A stretch of DNA of 25,903 nt from a virus: the IMG/VR virus record IMGVR_UViG_3300027977_002751, positions 1 to 25,903 of that record. One strand, written 5' to 3'. Positions within the stretch are counted from its first letter, which is position 1; each line of letters opens with the position of its first letter. A program made the position numbers and the translations under genes. The notes under the pieces were generated by a model, which made no database searches, was not told the origin of the DNA, and was given only the letters and a program-made list of their open reading frames with translations. Below, piece by piece: positions 665-20,628 of this stretch.

Positions 665-739
665 TTATTCTTTACAAAATACTTAAATGGCACAATTTTG
701 CGTTTCTTTTTTGACTTTTTCACACATCTATTTACAATG

Positions 740-747
740 GCTAAATA
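740..747 (+). promoter_or_regulatory. Late promoter-like motif GCTAAATA
   Basis: The TAAATA core ends five bases before the ATG at 753. With T4 late-promoter spacing the first transcribed base would be the A of the start codon. Confidence 0.55.
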
Positions 748-752
748 CAGTT

Positions 753-1886
753 ATGTCAGAATCTTACCAACCATATTCACGCAGCAATTCTGGTTATAAT
801 CCATTTAATATGTTTTATTACTATACATATAGATTCAAAGTGCAGCCATTGGTTTTTAAACTGAACAACATATTGGTGGATGAAACCATTGTTGAAAAAT
901 TAGAAAAGAAAAAAGCTGAAAAAATATTCGATAGTAAAATGGATTATCGCAGCAAAAAAAATGATAAAAGGGACATTTTCACAACCCAGATTTATTATGT
1001 GTACAAAGATGCATTGGTTTGTTTGGATTGCACAAAAGATGATGATGATGATTTTATATCTTCAACTGCAAACAATGAAACGTTTGAGGAAAAGATGCAG
1101 AACAAAAGTTTTTGGGTGCAGATTTTATATACGGACACCACTACATTGGAAGAAATTAGAGGAATGTTTGAATACAAAGAAAATATTAAAAAAGGAAATG
1201 TGTTTTTAATTTGTCAGGATGGAATTGAAGGAACATATTTGAAAAAATTTGATATTAAACTTCCAAACCATGATATTGATATTGAATTGAACTATGGAAA
1301 AGAATTTGTAAAAAAATATGATAATATTTTGCAAAAATTAAGAAATGATAAAAAATCAGGATTGATATTGTTTTCTGGTGTTCCAGGAAGCGGTAAAACA
1401 ACCATTGTTAAAAATTTGGCAATGAATATTGATAAAAAAATAATTTTTGTTCCACCTGGCACTGTGGATGTTATCACAACACCTGGATTTTTGAATTTTA
1501 TGCTGGATCATAAAAACAGTATTTTGCTTATTGAAGATGCTGAAAAAGTGATACGGAGCAGGGAAGGTGAAGGCAGCAATCCTGAAGGAGTAAGCAACAT
1601 TTTGAATCTTACAGATGGTTTTCTTGGAGATTGCTTAAATCTCTTTATCATAGCAACTTTCAATACACCCCGTGAAAAGATAGACAAAGCTCTTATCCGA
1701 AAAGGTCGTCTTGTGGCAGAACATCATTTTGATGAATTAACAGCAGATCAAGCCAATATTATTTTGAAAAAAATAGGAAGCAAAAGAAAAGCTGATAAGA
1801 ACATGACTCTTGCCGAAATATATAATGAAGAGGGCGGTATGGAAGAAAATTCACAAGAAAAAGAAAAGAAAAGGATTGGTTTTTAA
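753..1886 (+). CDS. AAA+ ATPase
   Basis: A 377-residue protein with a C-terminal AAA+ module. Visible motifs: Walker A GVPGSGKTT at residues 209-217, Walker B ILLIED at 257-262, a sensor-1-like segment FIIATFNTP, and an arginine-finger-like LIRKGRL. Such modules use ATP hydrolysis to remodel proteins or nucleoprotein complexes; the BCS1/FtsH-like layout of one domain after a long N-terminal region fits a substrate-specific unfoldase or chaperone. The first 200 residues match nothing I recognise. The tail is lysine- and glutamate-rich. The frame is open upstream to an ATG at 687, but I chose 753 because a TAAATA motif ends five bases before it and the extra 22 residues would be encoded across that promoter. 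It lies just upstream of the fibre array, so a role in fibre or virion assembly is possible but unproven. Confidence 0.85.
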   Translation: MSESYQPYSRSNSGYNPFNMFYYYTYRFKVQPLVFKLNNILVDETIVEKLEKKKAEKIFDSKMDYRSKKNDKRDIFTTQIYYVYKDALVCLDCTKDDDDDFISSTANNETFEEKMQNKSFWVQILYTDTTTLEEIRGMFEYKENIKKGNVFLICQDGIEGTYLKKFDIKLPNHDIDIELNYGKEFVKKYDNILQKLRNDKKSGLILFSGVPGSGKTTIVKNLAMNIDKKIIFVPPGTVDVITTPGFLNFMLDHKNSILLIEDAEKVIRSREGEGSNPEGVSNILNLTDGFLGDCLNLFIIATFNTPREKIDKALIRKGRLVAEHHFDELTADQANIILKKIGSKRKADKNMTLAEIYNEEGGMEENSQEKEKKRIGF

Positions 1887-1923: not shown

Positions 1924-3918
1924 ATGGCGCTCAAGAATTTTACACAATTTAGCCCCCAAATAGTATTATCCGCAACTGACTTTTTGGTGGGATATCGCAA
2001 TCTGGATGAAATACGCACAGATCTGGATAGCATGTCGTTGGGTGTTAGTGCTCTGCTCATCAGCAAGGGCTTTCTGCCTGGAACAACATTAGGAAGCATA
2101 AAAAGAAAAAGTTTTCAATATACCATTGTTCCGGGCAACAATCTGAACGCAGTTAGTGGCACAGACGACTACGGAAACATTTTAAGTTATACAGTCAATC
2201 AAGTGGAAGTGTATCGGAACGGTTCTCATTTGGTTAATAGCCAAGATTATTTGGCCAATAACAGCACACAGATACTGAATCTGAGCACACTTAATTTTGG
2301 AGATATCGTGCAAGTGGTGGGACTTAGTGGAATTGGCGTAACACAACAAAATACGTTGAGCGGATTTTTAGGCAATTTGGTTCAAACAAATTTCCGTTAT
2401 AGTGTGGCTAGTAGCAACACTATCACACCCGGCAGCACTGTTATCAGTGGATCTGATGATTATGGAGCTGTTCTTAGTTTCAAAACAAATGCTTTTGAAG
2501 TTTATCTGAACGGATCTCATTTGGTGCGAGATTATGATTATACTTCCTATAATCTAGGAACAAGTTTCACATTAGCATCTCCTGTATCAAATGGTGACAG
2601 TGTGAACGTGGTTTCATTAAGTTCGGTCACAACATCACAATTGAGTTCAATCAGTGCATTTAGTGGAATCAGCAAAATACTAGCAGGAGATAGAACCGCA
2701 ATTTCCTCTTCTACTGGAAATGTCACAGTATCTTCACAAACATGTATTAGTGATATTCTTGTTCCAAGTTGGACAAATGCTAATCATATTTCACAATTCA
2801 GCTTGCTACAAGATTATCTATCAGCAGTTGCTGCATCTAATACAAGTGCGGCCAGTGCAGTTTATATATCATATTTTGGAGCAAGTACTTATGGCGGAGG
2901 ATCGTCCCAAGTCACAGCTCAGGGAATATTAGGTCCGAATGGAAAGATATATTGCATGTCAGGGGATACAGATCAACCTGTTTTGGTTATCAATCCAGAT
3001 GATTTGACCATATCTAGCATTGCTCCAATAGGGGGAACACTTAACCGGAGAGAAAATGCGACAGGGTCGCTTGCCCCAAATGGAAAAATATATGAAGTTC
3101 CTGGAGGTATGTTTGCGGGTGTTATAAATAATACTTTTCGTTTCATAGATCCAAGCACAGGAACACGATCTGTATTTGCAACCGTGCCAGCCGTTAATCC
3201 CGGGGTAGACACTCCTTTAAGTAACTCCGTTGTGGCACCTGACGGAAAAATACATATGATAGCTAGTGAAATTAGTTTGAATTTTGTTGTGGATCCGTAT
3301 AGCAATGCAATTTCCAGTTATGTTTTGAATAGTGTACCTCCTCGTGTTAGAGGTATTCTTGCTCCTAATGGAAAAATTTACTGTTTGCCTACAACATATT
3401 CCACAATCTTTATTGTGGATCCTTCCAACAATGCAGTATCATCAATAAGCACATTTGTGCAAGGTGGAAATGGTATTGATAATCTTAGTCAAATTTCTTG
3501 TTTGGCACCCAATGGAAATATATATTTTGGATTGGGTGAAGGAAGTAAACGATTGTATGTTTTGGATCCTTCAAACAATTCGGTAACATCTTTTGGAACT
3601 TTTGCAGATAGTTATGGGAGTTCTACATTATGTCCCAATGGAAAAATTTATTGTTTACCAACAGCAAGTGTTAACACTACTTCGTTGCTTTGTATCGACC
3701 CTCAAACAAACACAACTACTGAAATAGGTGGTTTTACTTTTGTAGCTACTCTATATAGTGGCATATTTGCATCTAATTCTAAACAAACAAGACTTATAAT
3801 AAATAATAGCGGATATTTTAACACACCTTCAAACGCACATATATGTGTTGATATACCCACAAACAATAATTGGAACATGAATGTTTCCACCAATCCTCTG
3901 TTTAACAATCAAGACTAA
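1924..3918 (+). CDS. Tail fibre 1 (type A), C-terminal seven-repeat propeller
   Basis: A 664-residue putative tail fibre or receptor-binding protein. Residues 1-50 form a conserved N-terminal end (MALKNFTQFS) shared with the fibres at 3971 and 6432, probably the virion-attachment part. Two copies of a repeat module follow, at about 62-136 and 156-235, each with a V(E)VYxNGSHLV core then a D-Y pair, a pattern common in phage tail fibres. A linker around VPSWTNANHIS leads to seven repeats from about residue 330, each centred on a PNGKIY-like strand and a (I/V)(D/N)P loop; the seventh is degenerate (ASNSKQTRL). This predicts a seven-bladed beta-propeller. The C-terminal cap reads NNNWNMNVSTNPLFNNQD. 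The final residues differ from the other fibres, and a relic of an alternative 3' end lies just downstream. The function as a fibre is inferred from the modules and the neighbouring chaperone-like gene. Confidence 0.8.
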   Translation: MALKNFTQFSPQIVLSATDFLVGYRNLDEIRTDLDSMSLGVSALLISKGFLPGTTLGSIKRKSFQYTIVPGNNLNAVSGTDDYGNILSYTVNQVEVYRNGSHLVNSQDYLANNSTQILNLSTLNFGDIVQVVGLSGIGVTQQNTLSGFLGNLVQTNFRYSVASSNTITPGSTVISGSDDYGAVLSFKTNAFEVYLNGSHLVRDYDYTSYNLGTSFTLASPVSNGDSVNVVSLSSVTTSQLSSISAFSGISKILAGDRTAISSSTGNVTVSSQTCISDILVPSWTNANHISQFSLLQDYLSAVAASNTSAASAVYISYFGASTYGGGSSQVTAQGILGPNGKIYCMSGDTDQPVLVINPDDLTISSIAPIGGTLNRRENATGSLAPNGKIYEVPGGMFAGVINNTFRFIDPSTGTRSVFATVPAVNPGVDTPLSNSVVAPDGKIHMIASEISLNFVVDPYSNAISSYVLNSVPPRVRGILAPNGKIYCLPTTYSTIFIVDPSNNAVSSISTFVQGGNGIDNLSQISCLAPNGNIYFGLGEGSKRLYVLDPSNNSVTSFGTFADSYGSSTLCPNGKIYCLPTASVNTTSLLCIDPQTNTTTEIGGFTFVATLYSGIFASNSKQTRLIINNSGYFNTPSNAHICVDIPTNNNWNMNVSTNPLFNNQD

Positions 3919-3920
3919 AT

Positions 3921-3953
3921 ATTTGCACCAACCCTTTCTTTAACAAATATTAA
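3921..3953 (+). pseudogene. Relic of a fibre gene 3' end
   Basis: Just after the stop of the first fibre gene, the bases read in frame ICTNPFFNKY then stop. This matches the C-terminal cap of the other fibres (for example NVCTNPMFNK and NVATNPFFNK). It lies in a different frame from the upstream gene and has no start codon. The 15 bases 3933-3947 are identical to 8358-8372 at the end of the third type A fibre. It is best explained as a leftover from recombination or duplication among the fibre genes. Confidence 0.7.
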
Positions 3954-3954
3954 A

Positions 3955-3962
3955 GATAAATA
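3955..3962 (+). promoter_or_regulatory. Late promoter-like motif GATAAATA
   Basis: Matches seven of eight positions of TATAAATA and ends eight bases before the ATG at 3971. Confidence 0.6.
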
Positions 3963-3970
3963 ATAACAAA

Positions 3971-5944
3971 ATGGCACTTAAAAATTTCACACAATTTACT
4001 CCTCAAACGGTTCTTAGCGGGACTGATAACTTTGTGGGTTATAGAGTTTTAGACGAAATTCGTTCAGATCTGAGCAGCGTTACAGATGCCATCAGTGGTT
4101 TGCTTCTTAGCAAAGGTTTTGTTCCGGGCAGCAGCGAGGGTGTTGTAAGAAAAGTAAGTTTTCGATACACTTTAACATCGGGCAGTTCACTTAATGCAGT
4201 TAGCGGTGCAGATGATTATGGATTAGTGCTTAGTTACACACCCACTCAGGTCGAGGTTTATCGGAACGGAGCATATTTGGCAGAATCATTGGATTTTGTT
4301 GCAAATAACGGAACTCAAATTACCAATCTGAGCACAATGAATGTGGGAGATATTGTGGAAGTGGTTGCACTCAGTTCCACACGTTTGACTTTGGCTAGTG
4401 GGTTTGGCACCGGAGACGTATCAAAAATAAATTATCGTTATAGTGTGGCCACAGGCAACACGATTGAACCAGGCGACACACTGATCACAGGAAATGATGA
4501 TTTTGGATTCGGCTTAAGTTTCGTGTCGCCCAATCTGGATGTTTACTTGAACGGTTCACATTTGGTTCGAGATATGGATTATGGTTCGTATGGGAGTGGA
4601 AATTCATTAATACTAAATGATGCAGTTGCAGATGGTGACACTGTGGAAGTGGTCAGTCTCAGTGCAAACAATCTGACACAAGTTGTGGGCATCACCGCAT
4701 ATAAAGGAATTCAACAAATACAAGCAGGCAAAGACTTTTTCATTTCTAATATTACTGGAACAGGAATTGTCACACTTTCAGCAAAACCCGGAATCAGAGA
4801 TATTAAAGTTCCTGATTGGACCACGGGTGCACATATAACTAATTTTAGCACTTTGCAACAATATCTTAGTGCGGTAGCACAAAGCAATAGATTCACTCAA
4901 CCTAGTGCAGTTTACATGGAAATTTTCGCCACAAATGCATATCCTGTTGAAGCAGGAACACAGAATTGGGAAGGGGGAGTTTTACATCCCAATGGAAAAA
5001 TATATTGTTTTCCGGAAAATGCATCAGTAATTCTTATTATTGATCCTGATTCCAATACAACAACAACAACAGGGGCAGGATCCTTTGGAACAGTTGGAAA
5101 CAAGTATCAAGGTAGCATATTAGCTCCAAATGGAAAAATATATGGAGTTCCTTGTGGAAGTGGTACAACATCTAGACCTCAAACAGTTTTTCAATTATTG
5201 GATCCGTCAAATAATACAATAACAGCTTATGCAAGCATAGCTTCTCTTCCTCCAACAAATGCATTTCAGGGAGGTGTATGTGCTCCTAATGGAAAATTAT
5301 ATTTAACTCCTTCAACCAGTTCAATTTTTTATTTTATTGATCCTTCTAACAATACTGTCAGTGCATTTGCCACATATGTTACAAATTCCTCAATTTTTGG
5401 ACAAAATTATAGTTTTGGATGTGTTGGTCCTAACGGAAAAATATATATATCACCTACAGGAGCAACCGTGGGGCGCATTATTGATCCAGATACTAATACA
5501 ATAACAACTTTTGGAATAACAGGACAGAGTCTACCTAATTTGGGTGCAGGAATTGTTGCTCCTAATGGAAAAATTTATTTCGTACCAAATCATAGTATAG
5601 GATATATTTTAGATCCTTTTAATAACAATACAATTTCAACATATTCATGTGCTCCAGTTATAACAGGAGCTACTTCCTCTTTCGGAGGAAGGTTGGCACC
5701 AAATGGTAAAATATATTTTGCATCATGGGCCGGAACATTTTTTGGCATGCTTGATCCAGACAACAATACTGTAACACAATTAGGAACAGTAGCTTCAGTA
5801 GGCTATCTTGGCATGGTTCTTACACCGAAAGGAAAACTTGTTCTTATACCAGCAGCAGCAACAAGCATTACAGCTTATAATTTAAATTTAAATAATAATT
5901 TTAACATAAACGTTTGCACCAACCCAATGTTTAACAAAATTTAA
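3971..5944 (+). CDS. Tail fibre 2 (type A), C-terminal seven-repeat propeller
   Basis: A 657-residue paralogue of the fibre at 1924 with the same architecture: an N-terminal end starting MALKNFTQFT, two YxNG repeat modules, a linker with VPDWTTGAHIT, and seven propeller-type repeats from about residue 330 (cores include HPNGKIYCFP, APNGKIYGVP, APNGKLYLTP, GPNGKIYISP, APNGKIYFVP and APNGKIYFAS, with TPKGKLVLIP last). It ends with NVCTNPMFNKI. The linker closely resembles that of the type B fibre at 8426, although the N-terminal halves of the two proteins are unrelated, so the propeller and linker appear to move as a unit. It probably forms a receptor-binding fibre or fibre tip. A role as a lactonase-type enzyme is not supported by any visible active-site pattern. 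Confidence 0.8.
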   Translation: MALKNFTQFTPQTVLSGTDNFVGYRVLDEIRSDLSSVTDAISGLLLSKGFVPGSSEGVVRKVSFRYTLTSGSSLNAVSGADDYGLVLSYTPTQVEVYRNGAYLAESLDFVANNGTQITNLSTMNVGDIVEVVALSSTRLTLASGFGTGDVSKINYRYSVATGNTIEPGDTLITGNDDFGFGLSFVSPNLDVYLNGSHLVRDMDYGSYGSGNSLILNDAVADGDTVEVVSLSANNLTQVVGITAYKGIQQIQAGKDFFISNITGTGIVTLSAKPGIRDIKVPDWTTGAHITNFSTLQQYLSAVAQSNRFTQPSAVYMEIFATNAYPVEAGTQNWEGGVLHPNGKIYCFPENASVILIIDPDSNTTTTTGAGSFGTVGNKYQGSILAPNGKIYGVPCGSGTTSRPQTVFQLLDPSNNTITAYASIASLPPTNAFQGGVCAPNGKLYLTPSTSSIFYFIDPSNNTVSAFATYVTNSSIFGQNYSFGCVGPNGKIYISPTGATVGRIIDPDTNTITTFGITGQSLPNLGAGIVAPNGKIYFVPNHSIGYILDPFNNNTISTYSCAPVITGATSSFGGRLAPNGKIYFASWAGTFFGMLDPDNNTVTQLGTVASVGYLGMVLTPKGKLVLIPAAATSITAYNLNLNNNFNINVCTNPMFNKI

Positions 5945-5972
5945 ATAATAAACATAAATATTAATCAACAAA

Positions 5973-5980
5973 GATAAATA
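5973..5980 (+). promoter_or_regulatory. Late promoter-like motif GATAAATA
   Basis: Ends ten bases before the ATG at 5991. A second copy, CATAAATA, lies at 5953-5960. Confidence 0.55.
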
Positions 5981-5990
5981 AATATATTAT

Positions 5991-6368
5991 ATGACAACTT
6001 ATATTGATTACGGAAGCTATTATGAAACGGGTGATGTGGTGGTTTGCCGCATGGGTAAAAATCAACCTTATAATCCTTTTGGCGGAGCGCAGATCACATG
6101 GGAACAGTATGTAAATCAACAGGTTGCAGCAGGAACAGCTCAAGTTGTGCAACTAATTAATGATCCCACTCGTCTTGCCGCTTATTGGAGCGATGTGATT
6201 ACCAAACGAAATGGTCTTCTTGTGGATAGCGATTGGACACAACTGCGAGATGTAACTCTTTCTGACAACACACAATGGACAACTTATCGTCAGCAACTTC
6301 GCGATATTCCGCAAACATATGCAAGTGATCCTCGCTTGATTGTTTGGCCCACTGCTCCAACAGCTTAA
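5991..6368 (+). CDS. Tail fibre assembly chaperone-like protein
   Basis: A 125-residue protein. Its C-terminal half carries the pattern typical of phage tail assembly chaperone proteins: an arginine/asparagine-containing helix, then LLVDSDWTQLRDVTLSDN, then a WTTYRQQLRDIP segment and a proline-rich end (IVWPTAPTA). Proteins with this R...LL..SDWTQ...W..YRQ.LRD.P signature are usually encoded next to tail fibre genes and help the fibres fold or attach. Its position between the second and third type A fibres fits. The N-terminal part (MTTYIDYGSYYETGDVVV) is not familiar. A single such gene may serve the whole array. Confidence is high for the family and moderate for the exact client. Confidence 0.78.
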   Translation: MTTYIDYGSYYETGDVVVCRMGKNQPYNPFGGAQITWEQYVNQQVAAGTAQVVQLINDPTRLAAYWSDVITKRNGLLVDSDWTQLRDVTLSDNTQWTTYRQQLRDIPQTYASDPRLIVWPTAPTA

Positions 6369-6391
6369 AATATTTTTTATTAATAAAACAT

Positions 6392-6408
6392 CACCAGTTT
6401 TCTTGGTG
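6392..6408. terminator. Possible weak terminator hairpin
   Basis: CACCA (6392-6396) pairs with TGGTG (6404-6408) around a seven-base loop, followed by five T (6411-6415). The stem is short, so only partial termination after the chaperone-like gene is likely. The T run leads directly into the next late promoter motif. Confidence 0.35.
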
Positions 6409-6415
6409 CATTTTT

Positions 6416-6423
6416 AATAAATA
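6416..6423 (+). promoter_or_regulatory. Late promoter-like motif AATAAATA
   Basis: Seven of eight matches to TATAAATA, ending eight bases before the ATG at 6432. Confidence 0.6.
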
Positions 6424-6431
6424 ATACAAGA

Positions 6432-8378
6432 ATGGCACTCAAGAATTTTACACAATTTACACCCCAAACAGTCCTATCCGCAACTGACTTTTTGGTGGGA
6501 TATCGCAATCTGGATGAAATACGCACTGATCTAAGCAGTTTGACCGATGCTATTAGTGGTTTGCTTCTTAGCAAAGGATTCACTCCAGGTGGTACTTTTG
6601 GTAGTGTTACTCGTTTGGGTTATCGTTTCACGATTGCTCCAGGCAATAATCTGAACGCAGTCAGTGGTACTGATGATAACGGACAATTTTTATTGTATAA
6701 TCCTGGGGCTGTGGAAGTTTATCGAAACGGTTCCCATCTTGTTGAAACATTAGATTATCAGGCCACTAACGGAACCCAGATACTTAATTTAAGCACAATG
6801 AATGTGGGTGACATTGTGGAAATATCATCGTTGAGCGGAATACCTCTCACAATTATACCTGCAATTACTGGAGCGGGAAATGCTCTTGTTGCTTCGTTTC
6901 GTTACACCGTAAACAGTGGCAACACAATTGTTCCTAACGCAACATTGATTAGTGGTGCCGATGATTATAATGCAGTGCTTAATTTCATTCCAGCAAATAT
7001 TGATGTTTATGTGAACGGATCGCATCTGATCCGTGATATTGATTATGGTTTGTATAGCAGCGGAAGTTCTTTCACACTTAATGATGCTGTTACCGGAGGT
7101 GACGTGATAGACGTGATAACTTTGAGCGGAACCAGTCTAACTCCTACCATTGGAATCAGCGCATATTCTAATGTGACAAATGTTAACCGAGGAAAAAATA
7201 TATTAGTTTCACAATCATCTGGAGTTGTTACAATCAGCGCCAAATCCGACATTTGCAGTGAAATTAGTTTGGATGATATTCCCGTTCCAGGTTGGACAGA
7301 TGGTCAACACATTTCTCGATTCAGCTTGCTTCAAGATTATCTATCAGCAGTTGCCACAACAAATACAAGTCCTGCCAGCAATGTTTATGTTGAATATTTT
7401 GGATCTTCCTCTGGGCTAGCGGCGCATGTAAATTTAGTTAATCTACCCAATGGTAAAATTTATGCAATGCCCCATCAAACTAGTTTTTTAAGAATTATAG
7501 ATCCAAATACAAATACTGTTAGTGTTGTGGCCACAATAACTAATCCAACTTCAGTTAATATTACACATGGAGGTGTTTTAGGTTCTAACGGAAAAGTTTA
7601 CACTATTCCTGCCGATGATACTGTTTTGAGAAAAATAGATCCAAGCAATAATACTATATCTATTATAGCAACTCTTGGCACCAGCTCGTACCAAACCTCT
7701 AGTCAAGGAGGTGTATTGGGACCTAATGGAAAAATTTATATTATCCCACTGATCAGCACTTTTCTTAGAATGATTGATCCAAATAATGATACCGTAACTG
7801 TTATTGCTACTATAACTCCTGGTACCCAATATCAAAGTGCCAATTGTTTGGCTCCCAACGGAAAAATATATTTGTTTCCTGGTACTACTAACGGAACCAT
7901 GATACGAGTAATCGATCCCTCTAATAATCAGATAAGCAGTCTGGGATTTGTGTGTCCTAAAACGTCAAGTGCAATTTTGGCTCCAAATGGAAAAATTTAT
8001 CTGGCAGCAAGTTTGGCCAATGCACGTCCTCTGGTATTTGATCCTCAAACCGAAACCATAAGCACGTTTGCGGTTATTTCGTTTAGCACCAACATAGTTC
8101 CAAATCAAGCTTGTTTGCTTCCTAATGGAAAAATATTTTCTTATAATGGATTTGGTGGTAATTCTATGATTATGATTTTAGATCCAGATACAAATACGGC
8201 CACAACTTTTTCAACTGCACCTTATAATAGTATTGATTCATATGGTTTAATTGCTGGACCCAACGGAAATGTATATTTGGCTCCTTATGGTTCTACTAAT
8301 TTTGTATCTTTTAATTTTTTAAACAACAATAATTGGAATATTAATGTTGCAACAAATCCTTTCTTTAACAAAACTTAA
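6432..8378 (+). CDS. Tail fibre 3 (type A), C-terminal seven-repeat propeller
   Basis: A 648-residue paralogue with the type A plan: conserved N-terminus, two YRNGSHLV / YVNGSHLI repeat modules, a linker with VPGWTDGQHIS, and seven repeats from about residue 335 (cores such as LPNGKIYAMP, GPNGKIYIIP, APNGKIYLFP and APNGKIYLAA). It ends NVATNPFFNKT. It is a visible mosaic. Bases 6475-6526 are identical to 1967-2018 of the first fibre, whereas the codons just after, encoding TDAISGLLLSKGF, match the second fibre. The stretch around FSLLQDYLSAVA again follows the first fibre. This points to gene conversion within the array. Role as above: inferred receptor-binding fibre. Confidence 0.8.
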   Translation: MALKNFTQFTPQTVLSATDFLVGYRNLDEIRTDLSSLTDAISGLLLSKGFTPGGTFGSVTRLGYRFTIAPGNNLNAVSGTDDNGQFLLYNPGAVEVYRNGSHLVETLDYQATNGTQILNLSTMNVGDIVEISSLSGIPLTIIPAITGAGNALVASFRYTVNSGNTIVPNATLISGADDYNAVLNFIPANIDVYVNGSHLIRDIDYGLYSSGSSFTLNDAVTGGDVIDVITLSGTSLTPTIGISAYSNVTNVNRGKNILVSQSSGVVTISAKSDICSEISLDDIPVPGWTDGQHISRFSLLQDYLSAVATTNTSPASNVYVEYFGSSSGLAAHVNLVNLPNGKIYAMPHQTSFLRIIDPNTNTVSVVATITNPTSVNITHGGVLGSNGKVYTIPADDTVLRKIDPSNNTISIIATLGTSSYQTSSQGGVLGPNGKIYIIPLISTFLRMIDPNNDTVTVIATITPGTQYQSANCLAPNGKIYLFPGTTNGTMIRVIDPSNNQISSLGFVCPKTSSAILAPNGKIYLAASLANARPLVFDPQTETISTFAVISFSTNIVPNQACLLPNGKIFSYNGFGGNSMIMILDPDTNTATTFSTAPYNSIDSYGLIAGPNGNVYLAPYGSTNFVSFNFLNNNNWNINVATNPFFNKT

Positions 8379-8411
8379 CATGAAAAAAGATTCTCAACAT
8401 TCTGAAACGGG

Positions 8412-8419
8412 GGTAAATA
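8412..8419 (+). promoter_or_regulatory. Late promoter-like motif GGTAAATA
   Basis: The TAAATA core ends six bases before the ATG at 8426. Confidence 0.5.
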
Positions 8420-8425
8420 ACTAAT

Positions 8426-9712
8426 ATGCCGACGCGAGCACTATCTGGAGCCCGAATGGTACGTGATTTGGGTGTAACCAATGAATTTTTAGCAGCCAAT
8501 GTTGCATCTGCCACCAAAATACAACAGGTACCTAGTGACAGGTTTATAAGCAGGGGACTTGCTAACACTAGTACAGGCAATGTTCAAGGAGAACAGCCGT
8601 GGTATGATGTGCAGGTGCCAGATTGGACTACGGGTGCACACATAACCAACTCGAGCACTTTGCAACGTTATCTGAGCAGTGTGGCGGAGACCAATAGTCT
8701 TGTTCCGGCCAGCGATGGTTTTGTTGAAAGGTTTGGAACTTTTCCAGGAAGTGCTGGTTTTTTTGGAGGTGTATTAGCTCCTAATGGAAAAATATATTGT
8801 GTTCCTCACGGAACAACTTATTGTGCAGTCATCGATCCTATTAATAATTCTGTATCATCAATAGGTAATGGTTTGTTTCCAATGGTAAATCCTGCTCTTG
8901 GTTCATATGCAGGAGGTGTTTTGGCTGCAAATGGAAAAATATATCTTGTTCCAAGCAATCAAACTACTATGCGGGTAATTGATCCGTCTAGTAACACAGT
9001 TTCGAGTATTAATAATATAAAAACAGCTTATGATTCAGGTGTGTATCATCCTAATGGAAAAATTTATATGAGTCCATGGAGCACAGCAACTCAATTTTTG
9101 ATTGTTGATACCTTTAATAATGATTCCATAAGCTATACTTCAAATATACCAGTTAGAAACGGTAGAACTGGAACGAGTGTTGCTCCCAATGGTTTTATAT
9201 ATTCGAATGGGTCAACCATTATTTCAAAAATAGATCCATCTAATGACACAGTTACTAATATTATTAGTATTACACAGGGGGGAATGAGTGACACCCTTGT
9301 TCTGGCACCAAATGGAAAATTTTATAATTATAATTATGCCAGAACATGTATTACTGTGTTAGATCCTTCGAATGATACATTAATTACCTTTCAAACACCC
9401 GATCCAAGCATATTATCAGACGGATATGTTTTAGCTCCCAACGGAAAAATATATTTCGTACCGAACAGAGGATTACACAATCAAACTGTCATGACATTTA
9501 TTGATCCAAATAATAATACTTTAGGAACTTGCGTAAATCTTAGCAATCTTACATTGGGAACGGAGGCATATGAAGGAGGAATTGTGGCACCTAATGGGAA
9601 AATGTATTTTATTCCTTTTGCAGCAACCAGTGTTTTGTGTTTTAATTTTTTAAACAATAACAATTGGAACATAAATATATGCACCAATCCAATGTTTAAT
9701 AAGGGAATTTAA
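8426..9712 (+). CDS. Tail fibre 4 (type B, short N-terminus), seven-repeat propeller
   Basis: A 428-residue protein with a different N-terminal end from type A. Residues 1-45 (MPTRALSGARMVRDLGVTNE...KIQQVPSDRFISRG) follow a pattern common in phage fibres: a G-V-T segment, a K-I segment, then F(I/L)xR and a GTG or TGN turn. The linker VPDWTTGAHIT resembles that of the type A fibre at 3971. Seven propeller-type repeats start near residue 113 (APNGKIYCVP first, APNGKMYFIP last), and the cap reads NNNWNINICTNPMFNKGI. The protein is essentially a type A fibre without the two YxNG modules and with another attachment end, so it may join a different virion site or form a shorter fibre. The start is supported by the TAAATA motif six bases upstream. 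Confidence 0.8.
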   Translation: MPTRALSGARMVRDLGVTNEFLAANVASATKIQQVPSDRFISRGLANTSTGNVQGEQPWYDVQVPDWTTGAHITNSSTLQRYLSSVAETNSLVPASDGFVERFGTFPGSAGFFGGVLAPNGKIYCVPHGTTYCAVIDPINNSVSSIGNGLFPMVNPALGSYAGGVLAANGKIYLVPSNQTTMRVIDPSSNTVSSINNIKTAYDSGVYHPNGKIYMSPWSTATQFLIVDTFNNDSISYTSNIPVRNGRTGTSVAPNGFIYSNGSTIISKIDPSNDTVTNIISITQGGMSDTLVLAPNGKFYNYNYARTCITVLDPSNDTLITFQTPDPSILSDGYVLAPNGKIYFVPNRGLHNQTVMTFIDPNNNTLGTCVNLSNLTLGTEAYEGGIVAPNGKMYFIPFAATSVLCFNFLNNNNWNINICTNPMFNKGI

Positions 9713-9715
9713 ATA
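9708..9715 (+). promoter_or_regulatory. Late promoter-like motif TTTAAATA
   Basis: Overlaps the stop codon of the preceding fibre gene (9710-9712) and ends five bases before the ATG at 9721. Confidence 0.5.
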
Positions 9716-9720
9716 AAACC

Positions 9721-11013
9721 ATGAGCTTACCACAAGATGCAGCAAAGATGGCGCGAGATGGGGGAATACAAACCCCCAAACTCGCCCCTAATGCTTTCAC
9801 CACGGACAAAATTTTTCAAATAGGGCAAGGAGAATTTATAGGCCGGGACAATCTGCAAAGTGGAAATGGAAATGTAGGTGCCACTCAAAGCTATCCTGAT
9901 ATTAGTCTCACCAGCGCACTGAGCGCACCTTTCAATGCCACCACAGCATGGAGGAGTTTGAGTGCTTACCTGAATCAAGTTAAAAATACAAACACAAGTT
10001 CATCTTTTTATCTTGAAAAATTTGGTAGTTTTCCGGGAACAGGGGCATATGCAACCGCAGTTGTGGGTCCAAACGGATTGATTTACATGCCTGCCAACAA
10101 CAATAGTGTAGGGAGAATTATCAATCCTATTAATAATACCGTAACAACTTATGGAAGCTTTTTTCCATCACCAAACGGAGCAATTCATGGAGGAGCGCTT
10201 ACACCTAATGGATTAATTTATTGTACTGCCTACAACCAATCTACAGCATCCATCACCAACCCATTCAACAACACAACCACAACATTTGGAACTTTCCCCG
10301 GAACGTCAAGTGGCTGGGGAGCAGGTGCAGTGTTGGCACCTAATGGAAAAGTATATATGATTCCCTTCCTAGGAACAGTTTTTGCCGTGGTGGATCCTTT
10401 GGCCGCTAATCCTACAAGTATTCAATTTTTCGGGACCAACAATCAAAATTGTTTAGCAGGCACACTCGCACCCAACGGAAAAATTTATTGTGGCGTAAGC
10501 AGTCCTTACACGTATGGTATTATTATAGATCCCGCTACAAATACTTTATCATCATACGGACCCATTCCCAGCCAAAGTTATGCTGGTGGATCAGTCTTAG
10601 CACCTTCTGGAATAATATACATGATTCCAGTCGGATCCGCAGGCAACACTGTTGTTGTGGTTATTGATCCTTCAACAAACAGTGTTGTTAAAACATTTTC
10701 CGGTGTAACAGGAAATGGAGCATCTCCATACGTTGGAAGTTGTATTGATCAATTCGGAAGAATATTTTTAGCTCCTTATGATTCTACCACAGGATTGGTA
10801 ATTGACACGAATAATGACAGCATCCAAACATACGGTAATTCTTCATTTTTCCCCGGAAGTCAAGCCTATGAAGGTGCTATTCTAGCACCAAATGGAAAAG
10901 TATATTTTGTACCTTATAGTGCAACTAGCGGATTGTGCGTAAATGGGTTGAGCAATAATATTTGGAATTTAAATGCCACTATAAACCCAAGTTTTAATAG
11001 AACAAATAGTTAA
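9721..11013 (+). CDS. Tail fibre 5 (type B), seven-repeat propeller
   Basis: A 430-residue type B fibre. The N-terminal pattern is MSLPQDAAKMARDGGIQTPK, then a TTDKI segment and FIGRDN with a GNGNVG turn. A serine/asparagine-rich linker (ALSAPFNATTAWRSLSAY) is the most divergent in the array. Seven repeats begin near residue 114 (GPNGLIYMPA, TPNGLIYCTA, APNGKVYMIP, APNGKIYCGV, APSGIIYMIP, DQFGRIFLAP, APNGKVYFVP). The cap reads NNIWNLNATINPSFNRTNS, differing from the CTNP form of its neighbours. Only eight bases separate it from the preceding gene. It is inferred to be a receptor-binding protein. The high content of Asn, Ser and Thr would also make it a plausible glycosylation target. Confidence 0.78.
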   Translation: MSLPQDAAKMARDGGIQTPKLAPNAFTTDKIFQIGQGEFIGRDNLQSGNGNVGATQSYPDISLTSALSAPFNATTAWRSLSAYLNQVKNTNTSSSFYLEKFGSFPGTGAYATAVVGPNGLIYMPANNNSVGRIINPINNTVTTYGSFFPSPNGAIHGGALTPNGLIYCTAYNQSTASITNPFNNTTTTFGTFPGTSSGWGAGAVLAPNGKVYMIPFLGTVFAVVDPLAANPTSIQFFGTNNQNCLAGTLAPNGKIYCGVSSPYTYGIIIDPATNTLSSYGPIPSQSYAGGSVLAPSGIIYMIPVGSAGNTVVVVIDPSTNSVVKTFSGVTGNGASPYVGSCIDQFGRIFLAPYDSTTGLVIDTNNDSIQTYGNSSFFPGSQAYEGAILAPNGKVYFVPYSATSGLCVNGLSNNIWNLNATINPSFNRTNS

Positions 11014-11019
11014 TAAATA
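11012..11019 (+). promoter_or_regulatory. Late promoter-like motif AATAAATA
   Basis: Overlaps the end of the preceding gene and ends five bases before the ATG at 11025. Confidence 0.55.
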
Positions 11020-11024
11020 CTCCT

Positions 11025-12299
11025 ATGCCAACTCCTGCATTATCCGCCGCCAAGATGAGAAGAGATTTGGGTGTAACCACCCTCAAATTGGCGAATAATA
11101 GTGTCACAACCGATAAGATTCAGCAACTGGAAGCTAGTAAATTTCTGGGTCGCACCAGCAGCGGCACAGGCAATCCTGAACAAATCAATCAGTTTTTGCA
11201 CATGCGAGTGCCTGGATGGACAGATGGAGGAATATATACAAATATTTCTGCAGTTACCGCTCACGCTCAAGGATTGGCTTTTAGCAACAAAAACATAAGC
11301 ATAAGTGCTGCCACATTTGAAGTTTTTGGATCTGGTGCTTTTCCCGGAACAAATGCATATACTGGAGGCACGATTGCTCCCAATGGAAAAATATATTTTA
11401 CTCCTTATACTGCCACAGTTGGAGTAATTTTAAATCCTGTAGATAATAGTCTAGCAACTTTCGGACCCATACCTGCCAACGCAAGTGGAAAATATCAAGG
11501 AAGTGTGTTGGCTCCTAATGGAAAAATTTATCTAATAGGGGATAACAATGCTTTTGTAACAGTTGTAGACCCAAGCACAAATACAGTTGCAAACATTGCT
11601 GCTCCGGGGGGAAATGACAAAACCGCAGGAGGTGCATTAGGTTCAAGCGGAAAGATATATTGTTTTCCTGCAAATATTAATAATTTTATTTTTGTAGTTA
11701 ATCCCAATACTGATACAATTTCAAGCATTTCTCTACCATCAGTAGGAGGATATGGTAAAGCAATAACATTACAAAATGGAAAAGTACTTTGCAATCCTAT
11801 TGCAGGATTAGGAATGACCTTGTTGCTAGTCGTGGATCCTTCCAATGATAGTGTCACTAGTTATGCAATAAGTGACGCATCAATACAAACTGGGGGATTC
11901 GTGCCAGAACAGGCACATAATGGTAAAATATTATTAATTCCCGCTGGTAGTACTAATTTGATAGGTGTCATCGATCCCAACACTTATGCAATAAGCACCT
12001 ATTCAAGTGGAGGATTAAACGGTTGCCAATATCCTACAAAACTAGCCAATGGAAAAATATTCTCAACTAGCGGAAGTCAGACAGTAATAGCGTGGATTGA
12101 TCCAGATGATTTATCTGTAACAACACTAAGAGTTCCTAGTGTGGGAGGTTCTGCACCATATGGATTTCATATAAATCATCCCAATGGAAAGGTATATTTT
12201 GTTCCAAGTAATGCATCAAGTGGTTTGGTTATGAATCCTGGATTTAACAATAATTTTAACATAAATCTTTGTACCAGTCCTCTTTTGAACAACGCCTAA
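11025..12299 (+). CDS. Tail fibre 6 (type B), seven-repeat propeller
   Basis: A 424-residue type B fibre, last of the array. The N-terminus (MPTPALSAAKMRRDLGVTTL) closely follows that of the fibre at 8426, with TTDKIQQLEASKFLGRTSSG showing the classic fibre turn. The linker has VPGWTDGG but then diverges. Seven repeats begin near residue 115; the middle ones are more worn (GSSGKIYCFP, LQNGKVLCNP, AHNGKILLIP, LANGKIFSTS). The cap reads NNNFNINLCTSPLLNNA. Its stop codon overlaps the stop of the convergent glycosyltransferase gene, with no terminator between them, so transcripts from the two strands may run into each other. Confidence 0.78.
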   Translation: MPTPALSAAKMRRDLGVTTLKLANNSVTTDKIQQLEASKFLGRTSSGTGNPEQINQFLHMRVPGWTDGGIYTNISAVTAHAQGLAFSNKNISISAATFEVFGSGAFPGTNAYTGGTIAPNGKIYFTPYTATVGVILNPVDNSLATFGPIPANASGKYQGSVLAPNGKIYLIGDNNAFVTVVDPSTNTVANIAAPGGNDKTAGGALGSSGKIYCFPANINNFIFVVNPNTDTISSISLPSVGGYGKAITLQNGKVLCNPIAGLGMTLLLVVDPSNDSVTSYAISDASIQTGGFVPEQAHNGKILLIPAGSTNLIGVIDPNTYAISTYSSGGLNGCQYPTKLANGKIFSTSGSQTVIAWIDPDDLSVTTLRVPSVGGSAPYGFHINHPNGKVYFVPSNASSGLVMNPGFNNNFNINLCTSPLLNNA

Positions 12300-13747
12300 T
12301 TGTTCTTAAGCAAAGCCACATAAATTCCATTCCGCCAAGCTTCTTTGCTTCGTGGATATAGAATTTTTTCATAAATTATCTCAAAACCCCCCTCAGCTAT
12401 TCCTTCCATGGTTCCAAACACCACATCCATGCTGTTAGAGTAGTCATCACAATAATATATAAAATATTCTTTCATGTATTTCTTATAATGTGTAAGAGCC
12501 ATTTTTTGAGCTTCCCTTGAATGGCAACCATCATAAAAATACACATCAAATTTTTCATTTAAATGATCCAATATACCCTTGGAAAAACTGTCATTATCAA
12601 CAATAATACTGGGTTTGTTTGCACTCTTTAATTTTTGTAAAAATTCTTCCTTGCCACCATATTCACTCCAATTGTCCACACCCACATAAAGATTTGGAGT
12701 ATTCTTCCACAATCCTGCAATAAACGTTGCACCTTTATAAACACCAACCTCCAGATAATTGCATTTGTATAAACTTGCAAGATTATTGGTCAAATGTTTT
12801 GTGGCAGAACAGGTCATGCCATCCACTTTAAGATCAATATATTCACCATCCAGTTTGGAACTTCCAAAATCAGCGTTTTTAATGCTGTATAGCATGTGTT
12901 GCAAAAGATAGTATGGGTGATTGGTTTTCAGTGAAATTTCAACATCATTTCCTTCAATAAGGTTTTTCAATTTATCCTTGTTTTCCAATACATATTTGGG
13001 AAAATTGTCATTTAATTCAACTTTTTCTATAATGTATCCCATCCGTCCAAATATATCTTTGCCTTGTTTTATCTTTTCCTTGATATCATCCTCTGTGAAA
13101 ACGATACCAGAATCACGATATTCACTATGAGCAAAGTTTTGTATTTTTTTCAAAACATTTTTGGGTCCGCCCATGCTGGTAAAATGCCAGCCTGCATCAA
13201 GTATGCGCGGAAGACTTGTGGATCTTATGTTTCTGTAATGTTGCAGATCGTTTTTTGTTTTGTATTGACTGTATTTTATGGCAACTGTGCTGTCGTTATG
13301 CAGCTGATTTTCCGGACTGATGACATGGTTATGAAAAGACCCGCTATACATGCTGTAACAAAGTGTCACTGGAAATTGATTCACATCTCTTGTTTTTAAT
13401 TGTTTCAGTGTATTTTTACTGGGAATTTCATCCAAATCAGAAAGCAAAAGAATATCCGCATCATCTAAATTTAAAGGTATTTTTTCACTTAATGCACGAC
13501 GGTGATCATTTTCAATGCTCCAACTATCTGTATGTTTTACATTGTCAAAAATGACTAAATCTATCTTGTGTAAAAATTTTCTAAACCGTTCCCTGTTATT
13601 TGAAAAATAAAGAGGTTTGGGTTCGTTGTTGTGCGACATTGTACTTTCACAAATAACGAATCTGTCAACAACACTATTCAATTCATTCAACCGGATTTCC
13701 AACAGATCCAGTTCGTTATTAAAAGTAAATAAATCGTAAATTTTCAT
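12296..13747 (-). CDS. GT17-like glycosyltransferase fused to a methyltransferase
   Basis: A 483-residue two-domain protein. Residues 1-270 resemble glycosyltransferase family 17 (beta-1,4-N-acetylglucosaminyltransferase-like): MKIYDLFTFNNELDLLEIRL, then VICEST, KPLYF, and the nucleotide-sugar/metal site SDLDEIP at 103-109, then a GWHFTSMGG segment. Residues from about 325 form a class I SAM-dependent methyltransferase-like domain with motif I YLEVGVYKGATF (331-342), an acidic strand end GVDNW, and YFYDGCH. The fusion suggests that a transferred sugar, or the acceptor, is methylated. It is the last gene of a four-gene minus-strand operon and overlaps the preceding one by four bases (ATGA). 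The acceptor is unknown. The protein has no membrane segment, so it acts in the cytoplasm. Confidence 0.8.
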   Translation of the reverse strand: MKIYDLFTFNNELDLLEIRLNELNSVVDRFVICESTMSHNNEPKPLYFSNNRERFRKFLHKIDLVIFDNVKHTDSWSIENDHRRALSEKIPLNLDDADILLLSDLDEIPSKNTLKQLKTRDVNQFPVTLCYSMYSGSFHNHVISPENQLHNDSTVAIKYSQYKTKNDLQHYRNIRSTSLPRILDAGWHFTSMGGPKNVLKKIQNFAHSEYRDSGIVFTEDDIKEKIKQGKDIFGRMGYIIEKVELNDNFPKYVLENKDKLKNLIEGNDVEISLKTNHPYYLLQHMLYSIKNADFGSSKLDGEYIDLKVDGMTCSATKHLTNNLASLYKCNYLEVGVYKGATFIAGLWKNTPNLYVGVDNWSEYGGKEEFLQKLKSANKPSIIVDNDSFSKGILDHLNEKFDVYFYDGCHSREAQKMALTHYKKYMKEYFIYYCDDYSNSMDVVFGTMEGIAEGGFEIIYEKILYPRSKEAWRNGIYVALLKNN

Positions 13748-15144
13748 TTTTCTAAAATAAGCAAGCCATTATTTTTAGGTGTATAATAACTTATTTTCCA
13801 TTCAGGATAGTCTATTAAAAATTCCATAATAGCAGGAATTAGTCCCAAATCTTGATTATCTTCTCCTCTTTGACCAAATGAAAATACATCATGAAAAGCC
13901 AGATATTTTTTGGCTTTATTTGCATGCAATTTCAGTTCCTGTTTGAGTTGTGTGTATGTGTGCCAAGTGTCTATGAATAGAAAATCATATTCATCAATCT
14001 GTGTTTGGAGAACATCTTGTACAATATATTCATAATCCAATCCCTCTTTTTTTGCATATTGTTTATGTTTTTCAAGATCTTGTGAATATTCAATATCATA
14101 TGAAACCAATTTTTTGGGACGAGCATTCAAAAATGACCATGTTGAAATGCCTTTTCTAACACCCATTTCACAAATAGTATCGCACTTTTTTGCATAATTT
14201 TCTAATATATGCAGGTGTTCATTTATATCACTAGGAGTTTTGCAGTTTTTTAGGTGATATTCATTTATGGTTTCCGGCATTTTTAAATTTGTTTGTAAAA
14301 TATTTTTAACTGCGTTCACTGTTCTTTCCAATGAGTAGATACTTCGGTAAGTTTCCTGGATTTTTTTATTATCAATATGTTTACTTTTTTCAAAAGCTTC
14401 AGCTATGCTCATTTCATCCTTGAAAAGGAAAAGTTCATCAGGAAGATCACTAAATCCGATAAGTTCCTTGGTGCTTCGTTCCATATACACAGGAATGCCT
14501 GTATCCAATGCTTTGCATACAGCATAACAATTGATTCCTACATTTTTATTGTGAACAAGAAGAGAAGTATAAGGAAGCAAATCAATATCCCGAGCAAAAC
14601 CATCCGGAGCTAATTGAGATCCCACTATTTTCACATCATAACCATTATGTTTCAGATACATGAGTTCCCCAGTTTCTTCAACAAGAGCAGGAAGTGACAC
14701 TATTTGTGTTATATATTTTTTTTCTTTATGTTTGGTCTGGTGTGGCACCCAATTGGGACAAAATTGAAATCCGAAAGTTTCAGCATTTGGATGGTTACAT
14801 GTTTTAAGAATATCCAAATGACCAAATGCTTTTAATTCAGCTTGCATTTGGCAATCCCACCACGTTTTTTCAGCAAAAAGATCGTTAGGAATGATAGACA
14901 CATATTTGTCATATCCATTCCAATCATTGCTAAAATTTATATTTTTAAAATCAGGATAAACAATTTCTGGATCAAAAGATAAATTCGCAATTACAAATTT
15001 GTTTTTTCTTATGCCTCCTGGTGGAAATCCAAGATGTTTGACCAATTCTTCACTGGCCACATCAACTTGGATACCAAGCTCATGAAATGCCTTCCATAGA
15101 TATAGAAGACAATCTTGATGATGATTAAACATCAAGACGCGCAT
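13744..15144 (-). CDS. GT-B-like glycosyltransferase fused to a methyltransferase
   Basis: A 466-residue protein, apparently two domains. The N-terminal 280 residues look like a GT-B (GT4-type) glycosyltransferase: MRVLMFNHHQD start, and a C-terminal Rossmann-like half ending in NVGINCYAVCKALDTGIPVY, the usual donor-binding region. Residues from about 305 form a SAM-dependent methyltransferase-like domain with motif I ICEMGVRKGIST (324-335), a YDIEYS acidic strand end, and FLFIDTWHTY near 394-403, similar to Methyltransf_24-type proteins. It overlaps both operon neighbours, by 13 bases upstream and 4 bases downstream, which implies translational coupling. A GGAGG lies 18 bases before the ATG, too far for normal use. 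The glycosyltransferase half is the less certain assignment. Confidence 0.72.
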   Translation of the reverse strand: MRVLMFNHHQDCLLYLWKAFHELGIQVDVASEELVKHLGFPPGGIRKNKFVIANLSFDPEIVYPDFKNINFSNDWNGYDKYVSIIPNDLFAEKTWWDCQMQAELKAFGHLDILKTCNHPNAETFGFQFCPNWVPHQTKHKEKKYITQIVSLPALVEETGELMYLKHNGYDVKIVGSQLAPDGFARDIDLLPYTSLLVHNKNVGINCYAVCKALDTGIPVYMERSTKELIGFSDLPDELFLFKDEMSIAEAFEKSKHIDNKKIQETYRSIYSLERTVNAVKNILQTNLKMPETINEYHLKNCKTPSDINEHLHILENYAKKCDTICEMGVRKGISTWSFLNARPKKLVSYDIEYSQDLEKHKQYAKKEGLDYEYIVQDVLQTQIDEYDFLFIDTWHTYTQLKQELKLHANKAKKYLAFHDVFSFGQRGEDNQDLGLIPAIMEFLIDYPEWKISYYTPKNNGLLILEK

Positions 15145-15815
15145 AAATTTTTATATAATCCTCCGGTAACCCATTTAGTTTCCCAATATTTCATATCCAA
15201 AAACATGATGTCTTCAAATTCCTCATTATGGGGCTTTTTGCTAACTCCACCATCATGTGTGCAACTTGCTTCAGCACAATACCATACTTCCCATCCCCGT
15301 GCACGGGCCGTAAAGCACCAGTCACTATCGGATCCAATTAAAAACATGTTCTCATCCATGAGTCCAATTTCTTTTACCATTTCTCGACGCACAATGAAAC
15401 ACGCCCCATTTACCCATGGAACCATACTGCTTTCGTTATGCATTCCCAAACTAACTTTTCCGGTGATATGAACGCCATAAGGATATGCCTGACTGCATCC
15501 AGCATGAACAATGGTGTCGCCATCCGATGAAATTTGTTTAACTCCAGCAATACCACATCTGGGGTGCAGATCCATGAAAAGCTCCAGATTTTCAATAAAA
15601 CGATCATGAACATAACAATCACTGTTGATGACCAGAACATATTCATAATCTTGTTCAAACATTTGAAAACGTATTCCTTGGTTGTATGCCTTGGTGAATC
15701 CAATGTTTTTCGTGCTGTTATTATGATGATAAACCTCAACACCCTTCAACAGATTTATGCATTTTTCAGTTTGTTCAGGATTCTTATAACTGGCAATCAC
15801 TGCTGATGTTTTCAT
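15132..15815 (-). CDS. GT2-family glycosyltransferase
   Basis: A 227-residue GT-A glycosyltransferase of the GT2/rhamnosyltransferase-like type. Visible: the nucleotide-binding start TSAVIASYKNPEQTEKC, a conserved GFTKAYNQGIR segment, the DxD-equivalent VLVINSDCYV (N64-S65-D66), an acceptor-side NGACFIVRREM, and a DSDWCFTARARGWEVWYC segment containing the usual catalytic acidic residues. It is short for the family but holds the full core domain. Its ATG overlaps the TGA of the upstream TPR-glycosyltransferase by four bases. It would transfer a sugar from a nucleotide-sugar donor in the cytoplasm; donor and acceptor cannot be read from the sequence. Confidence 0.85.
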   Translation of the reverse strand: MKTSAVIASYKNPEQTEKCINLLKGVEVYHHNNSTKNIGFTKAYNQGIRFQMFEQDYEYVLVINSDCYVHDRFIENLELFMDLHPRCGIAGVKQISSDGDTIVHAGCSQAYPYGVHITGKVSLGMHNESSMVPWVNGACFIVRREMVKEIGLMDENMFLIGSDSDWCFTARARGWEVWYCAEASCTHDGGVSKKPHNEEFEDIMFLDMKYWETKWVTGGLYKNLCAS

Positions 15816-17326: not shown

Positions 17327-17334
17327 AGTTCTTT

Positions 17335-17342
17335 TATTTAAA
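17335..17342 (-). promoter_or_regulatory. Late promoter-like motif TTTAAATA for the glycosyltransferase operon
   Basis: On the minus strand TTTAAATA ends eight bases before the ATG at 17326. It is the only such motif found at the head of the four overlapping genes. Confidence 0.5.
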
Positions 17343-17370
17343 CATAAGATTTGATATTTCAATATTAATG

Positions 17371-20024: not shown

Positions 20025-20628
20025 TCAAAATATCATTCTGGATTTGGATCTGCAAGGTCGAAATGCCCGAATTGAAATGAGCAGCGATGAATGGTATGAC
20101 GTTCAAAATATCGTTTCAAAACAATCATCCAATTCAACTTCTGGTCAAATGTTTATTCTTCCTATGATATTTCATGGTCGGGCTGCACAATTGAATTTAA
20201 ATAAAAAAGAATATAAATTTCTGCAAGAAACAATTTTAATTTCAGCTTATAATGATCCTAAAAAAACTAAAGATAAAATTACTATGGAAATGAATATTAA
20301 TAATCGTCCTGCTCGTGTTGAAATGCGTAAAGCAGAAATGGCTAGATGGTTATGCTTGATTGAATCAATCGATCTTATAGAAAAGAAGTGTTCTGAAATG
20401 AACGTGACCATGTCAGAAGATTTTTGGATTCAACCAATCGCCATGCAAAAATACATGGATAGTCGTTTTGAAACCATGATGGATGAAGTCAACCATCATG
20501 AATTTGGTATCGATACTAAATCAGCAAACATGGATATATTAAAGAAAAAACGCAATTTGGAGCGTATGGAAGAAGTGGAAACTGAAGAAGAATTTGATCC
20601 GCGTTATGTGTCAGTGTGCACATCATAA
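19975..20628 (+). CDS. Hypothetical protein with three internal repeats
   Basis: A 217-residue protein. Three related segments are visible at about residues 20-37, 60-78 and 101-118. Each has a beta-strand pair around a basic turn: LDLQGRNARIEMS, IFHGRAAQLNLNK and MNINNRPARVEMR. Such internal triplication suggests a repeated small beta domain or a pseudo-threefold assembly. The C-terminal part is helical and acidic (EEVETEEEFDP). The start chosen (19975) lies inside the previous gene; a downstream ATG at residue 35 would break the first repeat. Its end overlaps the convergent gp14-like gene by 25 bases. The function is unknown. Confidence 0.65.
   Translation: MFNNTSTIKPNNEINNNQNIILDLDLQGRNARIEMSSDEWYDVQNIVSKQSSNSTSGQMFILPMIFHGRAAQLNLNKKEYKFLQETILISAYNDPKKTKDKITMEMNINNRPARVEMRKAEMARWLCLIESIDLIEKKCSEMNVTMSEDFWIQPIAMQKYMDSRFETMMDEVNHHEFGIDTKSANMDILKKKRNLERMEEVETEEEFDPRYVSVCTS

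Follow-up and report, generated by a model that had tools for sequence, protein, structure and literature searches.

The locus and its genes

The question raised by this locus is what six neighbouring genes for related proteins, all ending in the same kind of repeat, do for a single virus. The locus lies on a contig of 25,903 bases, one complete IMG/VR record of class virus, and the whole of this stretch is called the window here. The terminase in the window shares 34-38% identity with terminases of T4-like phages, among them Caulobacter phage Cr30 and Sinorhizobium phage phiM9. A head-closure/neck protein is encoded at 20604-21374. Judged by these two proteins, the source is an uncultured T4-like phage. 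A nucleotidyltransferase-like protein adjoining the neck gene (21374-22417) matches PF22600 below the cut-off (E 5e-4) and phrog_36119, a family without known function, with E 1.4e-31.

An earlier note on this DNA had described an array of six tail-fibre paralogues at 1924-12299. All six long open reading frames were found there, on the plus strand, and are named A1-A3 (type A) and B1-B3 (type B). The array does not consist of fibre genes exclusively, however, because a gene for a tail-fibre assembly chaperone (5991..6368, plus strand; PF16778, E 4.8e-16; phrog_4912) sits between A2 and A3. A1 (1924..3918, 664 aa) has an anchor at residues ~1-235, a linker and helix up to ~310, a predicted propeller at ~314-644 (nucleotides ~2863-3855), and then a C-terminal tail. 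In A2 (3971..5944, 657 aa) and A3 (6432..8378, 648 aa) the blade profile described below places the propeller at ~312-640 and ~312-630, respectively. The type-B proteins are shorter. B1 (8426..9712, 428 aa) has a short anchor at ~1-85 and a propeller at ~95-405; it is followed by B2 (9721..11013, 430 aa), identified by its reading frame and the blade profile, and by B3 (11025..12299, 424 aa). The B3 propeller is modelled at residues 97-404 (11313..12236) and is followed by a conserved tail, NNNFNINLCTSPLLNNA (12237..12296), of a kind common to all six proteins.

The fibre genes are bordered on the left by a conserved AAA ATPase gene (687..1886, plus strand; 96% identical in the related locus L009) and on the right by a block of four minus-strand genes (12296..17362). 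These encode a GT17 glycosyltransferase fused to a methyltransferase, a methyltransferase, a GT2 glycosyltransferase, and a TPR protein. The block may serve glycosylation of virion proteins or alteration of the host surface, and its order is the same in L038 and L077 (73-91%). Promoter-like sites are no more frequent in the array than chance predicts (40 versus 39.6 expected), and terminator-like sites are slightly above it (12 versus 8.2 expected). Scans found no Rfam match and no tRNA. No reverse transcriptase, which together with a template repeat would point to a diversity-generating retroelement (DGR), was found among the window proteins scanned, the contig being a fragment.

Identity of the fibres

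Gene context and stem similarity suggest that the six proteins are tail fibres. Besides the neighbouring chaperone, there is similarity of the type-A stem to proteins annotated as tail fibres in phages of Pelagibacter, Roseobacter and Bradyrhizobium (E 4e-5 to 9e-3) and to phrog_38058 (E 1.6e-8). The type-B stems gave no match of that kind, either to annotated tail fibres or to phrog_38058. Cultured Vibrio phages encode a tip relative immediately after the tape-measure gene or after the gene that takes its position; the tape-measure gene is annotated as such in phage 2E1 and was assigned by position in the others. In 2.095.A and 2E1 the tip relative precedes a pectin-lyase-fold protein or a hemagglutinin.

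Predicted seven-bladed propellers

The number of repeats is nearly constant. The earlier note had counted seven copies of the repeat in all six proteins. A blade profile built for each protein from the other five finds seven in A2, A3, B1, B2 and B3, and six in A1, where blade 7 is unrecognisable by sequence. Shuffled sequences gave a mean of 0.02-0.07 blades and a maximum of 1. Some copies had been described as degenerate, and this holds for blade 7 of A1, which went undetected, and of A2 (2.2 bits). The spacing is 41-53 residues, mostly 41-49, instead of 40-45. The DPxxN loop that was said to follow every motif is absent from blade 7 in 6/6 proteins, and the tail motif is found there instead. 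Propeller starts had been put at about residue 330 in type A and 113 in type B; when the start is taken at the strand that closes blade 7, they lie slightly earlier, at ~314 in A1 and 97 in B3.

The same count is found well beyond the window. Of the viral relatives with E up to 1e-30, 89 are distinct and full-length, and 74 of these score exactly seven blades. Eight-blade relatives have one additional match of at most about 5 bits, and those with fewer than seven are mostly short reading frames or contain stretches too degenerate to score. One relative has 14 blades and apparently two propellers; single reading frames of this kind, apparently tandem propellers, occur in L086 (9587-11686) and L087 (2708-4807). 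The relatives are mostly 22-40% identical to B3, and a constant count of seven despite such divergence is what a closed ring demands. In Pfam, A1 (33.9) and A3 (49.4) score above the Kelch_6 cut-off of 25.3, A2 is just under it (25.2), and B1-B3 are not above the curated cut-off. PHROGs held no useful family for the tips.

Structure models also predict the closed seven-bladed propeller that the earlier note had proposed. Models were made for B3 and A1, and A2, A3, B1 and B2 align over the whole propeller. The AlphaFold2 model of B3, which has the most degenerate motifs of the six, was run with 63 aligned sequences and is confident (mean pLDDT 84.5, pTM 0.83, with 277 residues at 90 or more). 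It consists of a helix at 74-87, a strand at 97-101, six four-strand blades, and then three strands of blade 7; the first strand of blade 3 is unassigned by DSSP and was placed by alignment. The A1 model is moderately confident (mean pLDDT 64.9, 35 sequences). It has a strand at 314-320 followed by 27 strands, including three strands of blade 7 with pLDDT around 44-51. From the order of strands, both chain ends would close the ring, with the N-terminal strand (97-101 in B3, 314-320 in A1) completing the three-strand blade 7.

Comparison with structural databases gave seven-bladed best solved matches for both models. Virginiamycin B lyase is the best PDB match of B3 (Z 29.2, rmsd 2.6, 294 residues) and the best solved match of A1 (Z 27.5), and YncE matches the B3 model with Z 26.5. 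These closest solved folds have seven blades like the tips, but they are only about 10-16% identical to them. The viral protein closest in fold to the B3 tip in BFVD is A0A1V0SG21, a collagen-repeat protein of Hokovirus HKV1 that is 26% identical to the B3 propeller over 345 columns; the propeller family may also be present on giant-virus proteins.

Two faces of the propeller

The two faces of the predicted propeller differ in conservation. In propellers, one face bears the a-b and c-d loops and the opposite face the b-c and d-a loops. Here the a-b loop is the PNGK turn and the c-d loop is the DPxNN turn, both of which are conserved and nearly fixed in length, whereas the b-c and d-a loops vary in both sequence and length. 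The relative entropy is 2.59 bits for the a-b/c-d loops versus 1.11 bits for the b-c/d-a loops (p 3e-17), and the mean standard deviations of loop length are 0.27 and 0.07 versus 1.26 and 1.94. In 13 of 13 closely related tip pairs, which are not all independent, the b-c/d-a loops differ more (46% versus 20% overall).

The main mechanistic inference is that the conserved face is likely to be the stalk side and the variable face the binding side. The N-terminal d strand adjoins the C-terminal c strand in the ring closure, so both chain ends would exit on the a-b/c-d face. With the chain ends on the conserved face, that face is likely to lie against the stalk and the variable face to point outward. 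The outward orientation, like a trimer, is a prediction from topology. The conserved loops may have been kept for folding instead of stalk contact.

Separate evolution of stems and tips

Comparison with related loci indicates that stems and tips evolve separately and that tips are shuffled among positions and phages. The relatives, cited here by handles such as L009, keep the same gene slots, which are recognisable from the first 60-75 residues. Sorting the five slots takes 4 changes on the tree of stems, the smallest possible number, and 14 on that of tips, where shuffling gives a mean of 17.0. An AU test rejects slot clades for the tips of B1 (p 1e-69), B2 (p 1e-28) and s2 (0.001), and does not reject them for the tips of B3 and s3. 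The change from stem to tip is abrupt. The B1 proteins of L009 and L010 are identical for ~80 residues and then 38% identical, and B2 of the window and B2 of L038 share 98% of their first 60 residues, against 39% identity in the propeller. The identity break sits after the YLSxVAxTN helix, where the propeller begins.

Related tips are also found on different stems. The window A2 tip groups with the B2 tip of L024, to which it is ~70% identical, and with the s2 tip of L017; the latter two are sisters with high support although their stems differ. The tips of L010 B1 and L038 B2 are sisters with support of 100/100. The tips in slot 1 of L020 and slot 3 of L016 are ~97% identical on different stems. 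Recent tandem duplication within the phage was also considered and was rejected, as the six tips form no clade (6 changes).

A short reading frame between B1 and B2 points to the limits of the exchanged unit. It has ~57 codons, occurs in L009 (11108-11285) and L024 (2187-2364), and combines the start of a B3-like stem with the conserved tail LNNNWNLNVATNPNFNKN, the propeller being absent. By its sequence, it is a fibre gene that lost its propeller. Since stem and tail are retained, the stem helix and the conserved tail are likely to be the flanks of exchange, with the C-terminal tail as the downstream flank.

B3 is an exception: in most relatives compared, its anchor and tip have remained together. 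The stable B3 tip is seen in the window, L009, L023, L024 and L077, and the propeller is ~73-75% identical to those of L077 and L024. Perhaps its partner is a conserved ligand or a part of the virion.

Distribution of the locus and of the propeller

The number and order of fibre genes vary among relatives. A chaperone gene follows B3 in L024, L038 and L077. The window has three type-A propeller fibres, whereas in L009 a single type-A gene is present and bears another tip. Type-A stems with non-propeller C-termini occur in L009 (8001-9371), L011 (1177-2526) and L013 (8001-11102), and these C-termini matched no Pfam family. The window has six propeller tips in one locus, compared to about three or four at most in the relatives examined, most of which are fragment contigs.

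The propeller occurs more widely than the locus. A scan of genome contigs with the alignment of the six found no relative, and one with B1 alone found 12 bacterial loci. Among isolated phages, tblastn with A3 found two Cylindrospermopsis phages only, and a search with the consensus-like relative L035 found 84 records. Tip relatives are also present in bacterial genomes, some of them starting in a lipoprotein-like manner, so the domain is not confined to phage tips. Lipoprotein-like signal starts were seen in L092, L095 and L103 (Leptospirales, Spirochaetaceae, Deltaproteobacteria).

Function and alternative explanations

The best explanation as a whole, with a probability of about 0.72, is that the locus encodes six T4-like tail fibres with host-facing propellers whose tips are exchanged as cassettes. 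It starts from the sequence anatomy, the predicted fold, the asymmetry of the faces, and the stem/tip mosaicism, which are established here; from there we infer virion presence, trimerisation, binding, and the recombination route. Each stem would dock on the tail, and the C-terminal propeller would touch the host surface. The N-terminal strand would pair with three C-terminal strands to give a closed propeller with its chain ends on the same face. The face with conserved loops of fixed length would rest on the stalk, and the opposite face would bind receptors, most likely glycans, through its variable loops. Recombination would swap tips as cassettes between stems and phages, while the stem and the conserved tail motif stay in place. 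An exchangeable receptor-binding repertoire is the most likely role, supported indirectly by the variable face and by tip exchange between stems.

It is unlikely that some of the six are instead whiskers, collar or capsid fibres, or proteins acting in assembly only, with one or two binding the receptor. The long type-A and short type-B stems do suggest different docking sites, the B3 tip is stable while others are exchanged, and in jumbo phage CBB a Kelch-like protein of unknown role belongs to the virion (PMC5259590). However, tip exchange and the variable face suggest that a changing partner exerts the selection, which would fit host recognition. An enzymatic role, in which the propellers would be lyase- or oxidase-like and cut or modify surface polymers as depolymerase tailspikes do, is improbable. 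The top fold matches include virginiamycin B lyase and galactose oxidase, but neither His nor Glu occupies an invariant position in the six proteins or a nearly invariant one in 63 relatives, which makes a shared enzyme mechanism unlikely. The conserved tip positions are structural (Gly, Asn, Pro, Tyr, Ile, and the DP of the loop), and the fold is common to many non-enzymes. The virginiamycin B lyase family has conserved catalytic His and Glu. As these are not conserved in the tips, a virginiamycin-lyase-like function was dropped.

The mosaicism might be only apparent. If tips diverged in place by fast adaptive change, a difference in rate between stem and tip would look like a mosaic. Within single tip lineages it is indeed the variable face that changes faster, and B3 fits divergence in place. 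This account is very improbable for the locus as a whole, given the rejected slot clades, the well-supported sister tips on different stems (L010 B1 with L038 B2, L024 B2 with L017 s2), and the identity of up to ~97% between L020 slot 1 and L016 slot 3. Assembly chimeras of metagenomic contigs have an even slighter chance of explaining the mosaics. The close relatives are all contigs from metagenomes, and arrays of paralogues are prone to misassembly, but the tips common to different stems have diverged by 28-40% or more (A2, L024 B2, L017 s2), a divergence that cannot arise when near-identical reads are joined, and the same stem-tip pairs are found again in separate contigs.

Comparison with known systems

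Propeller tips have been described in other phages. Tail protein gp131 of phage phiKZ (4GBF) has a seven-bladed propeller at its C-terminus (PMC4901313), as the six proteins are predicted to have. It belongs to the gp131-gp135 cluster of neighbouring virion proteins with a common N-terminal module, of which gp133-135 are only ~460 aa long. Neither phmmer nor blastp found significant similarity between gp131 and the six, and 4GBF is not among the fold matches listed, which tells nothing against a shared fold. The receptor-binding protein gp45 of phi11 has a five-bladed propeller whose last blade is closed by an N-terminal strand (PMC4901313). It resembles the tips in having a propeller closed in this way, and differs from the six in having five blades, in forming a trimer with stem and tower domains, and in lacking a paralogous array. 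Vibrio phages 2.095.A, 2E1 and 14E30.2 (phrog_34644) are isolated phages with relatives of the tip family, 29-35% identical to L035, but each has one such gene of another architecture and no tandem fibre array.

Sets of receptor-binding proteins and exchange of their domains are also known. Klebsiella phages of the PhiK64-1 type have up to 11 receptor-binding proteins (PMC6872550), and a conserved motif in some Kuttervirus tailspikes has been proposed to permit recombination between paralogues (PMC10892097). Like the phage studied here, as proposed, Ackermannviridae with TSP1-TSP4 and phages of the PhiK64-1 type have several receptor-binding proteins each; their tips are depolymerase tailspikes, whereas all six here belong to one propeller family. 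Domain shuffling is general in receptor-binding proteins (PMC10684548). The earlier note had called six propeller fibres unusual, and the number does exceed that in the relatives examined, but larger receptor-binding sets and a propeller tip in gp131 were already known. The open-access literature contained no report of tandem propeller-tipped fibres with tips circulating between slots. Propeller receptor-binding proteins, phages with several receptor-binding proteins, and tip swapping are each known, and in that literature their combination, as read here from sequence, is apparently unreported.

Implications

The odds are about even that the locus represents a repertoire built on a single fold. 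At least six propeller heads would be carried in parallel and drawn from a pool shared with relatives, they would be joined to different stems through a fixed junction helix on the upstream side and the conserved tail on the downstream side, and exchange of whole heads would change host recognition. If this is true, the seven-bladed propeller joins beta-helix tailspikes and lectin-like tips as a base for interchangeable recognition heads. Specificity residues would then be predictable from sequence alone, because topology separates the stalk face from the variable face, and such prediction would help link uncultured phages to their hosts. A repertoire of this kind would also suggest a function for a family whose members in isolated Vibrio and cyanobacterial phages are now mostly annotated as hypothetical, DUF or Kelch/YVTN.
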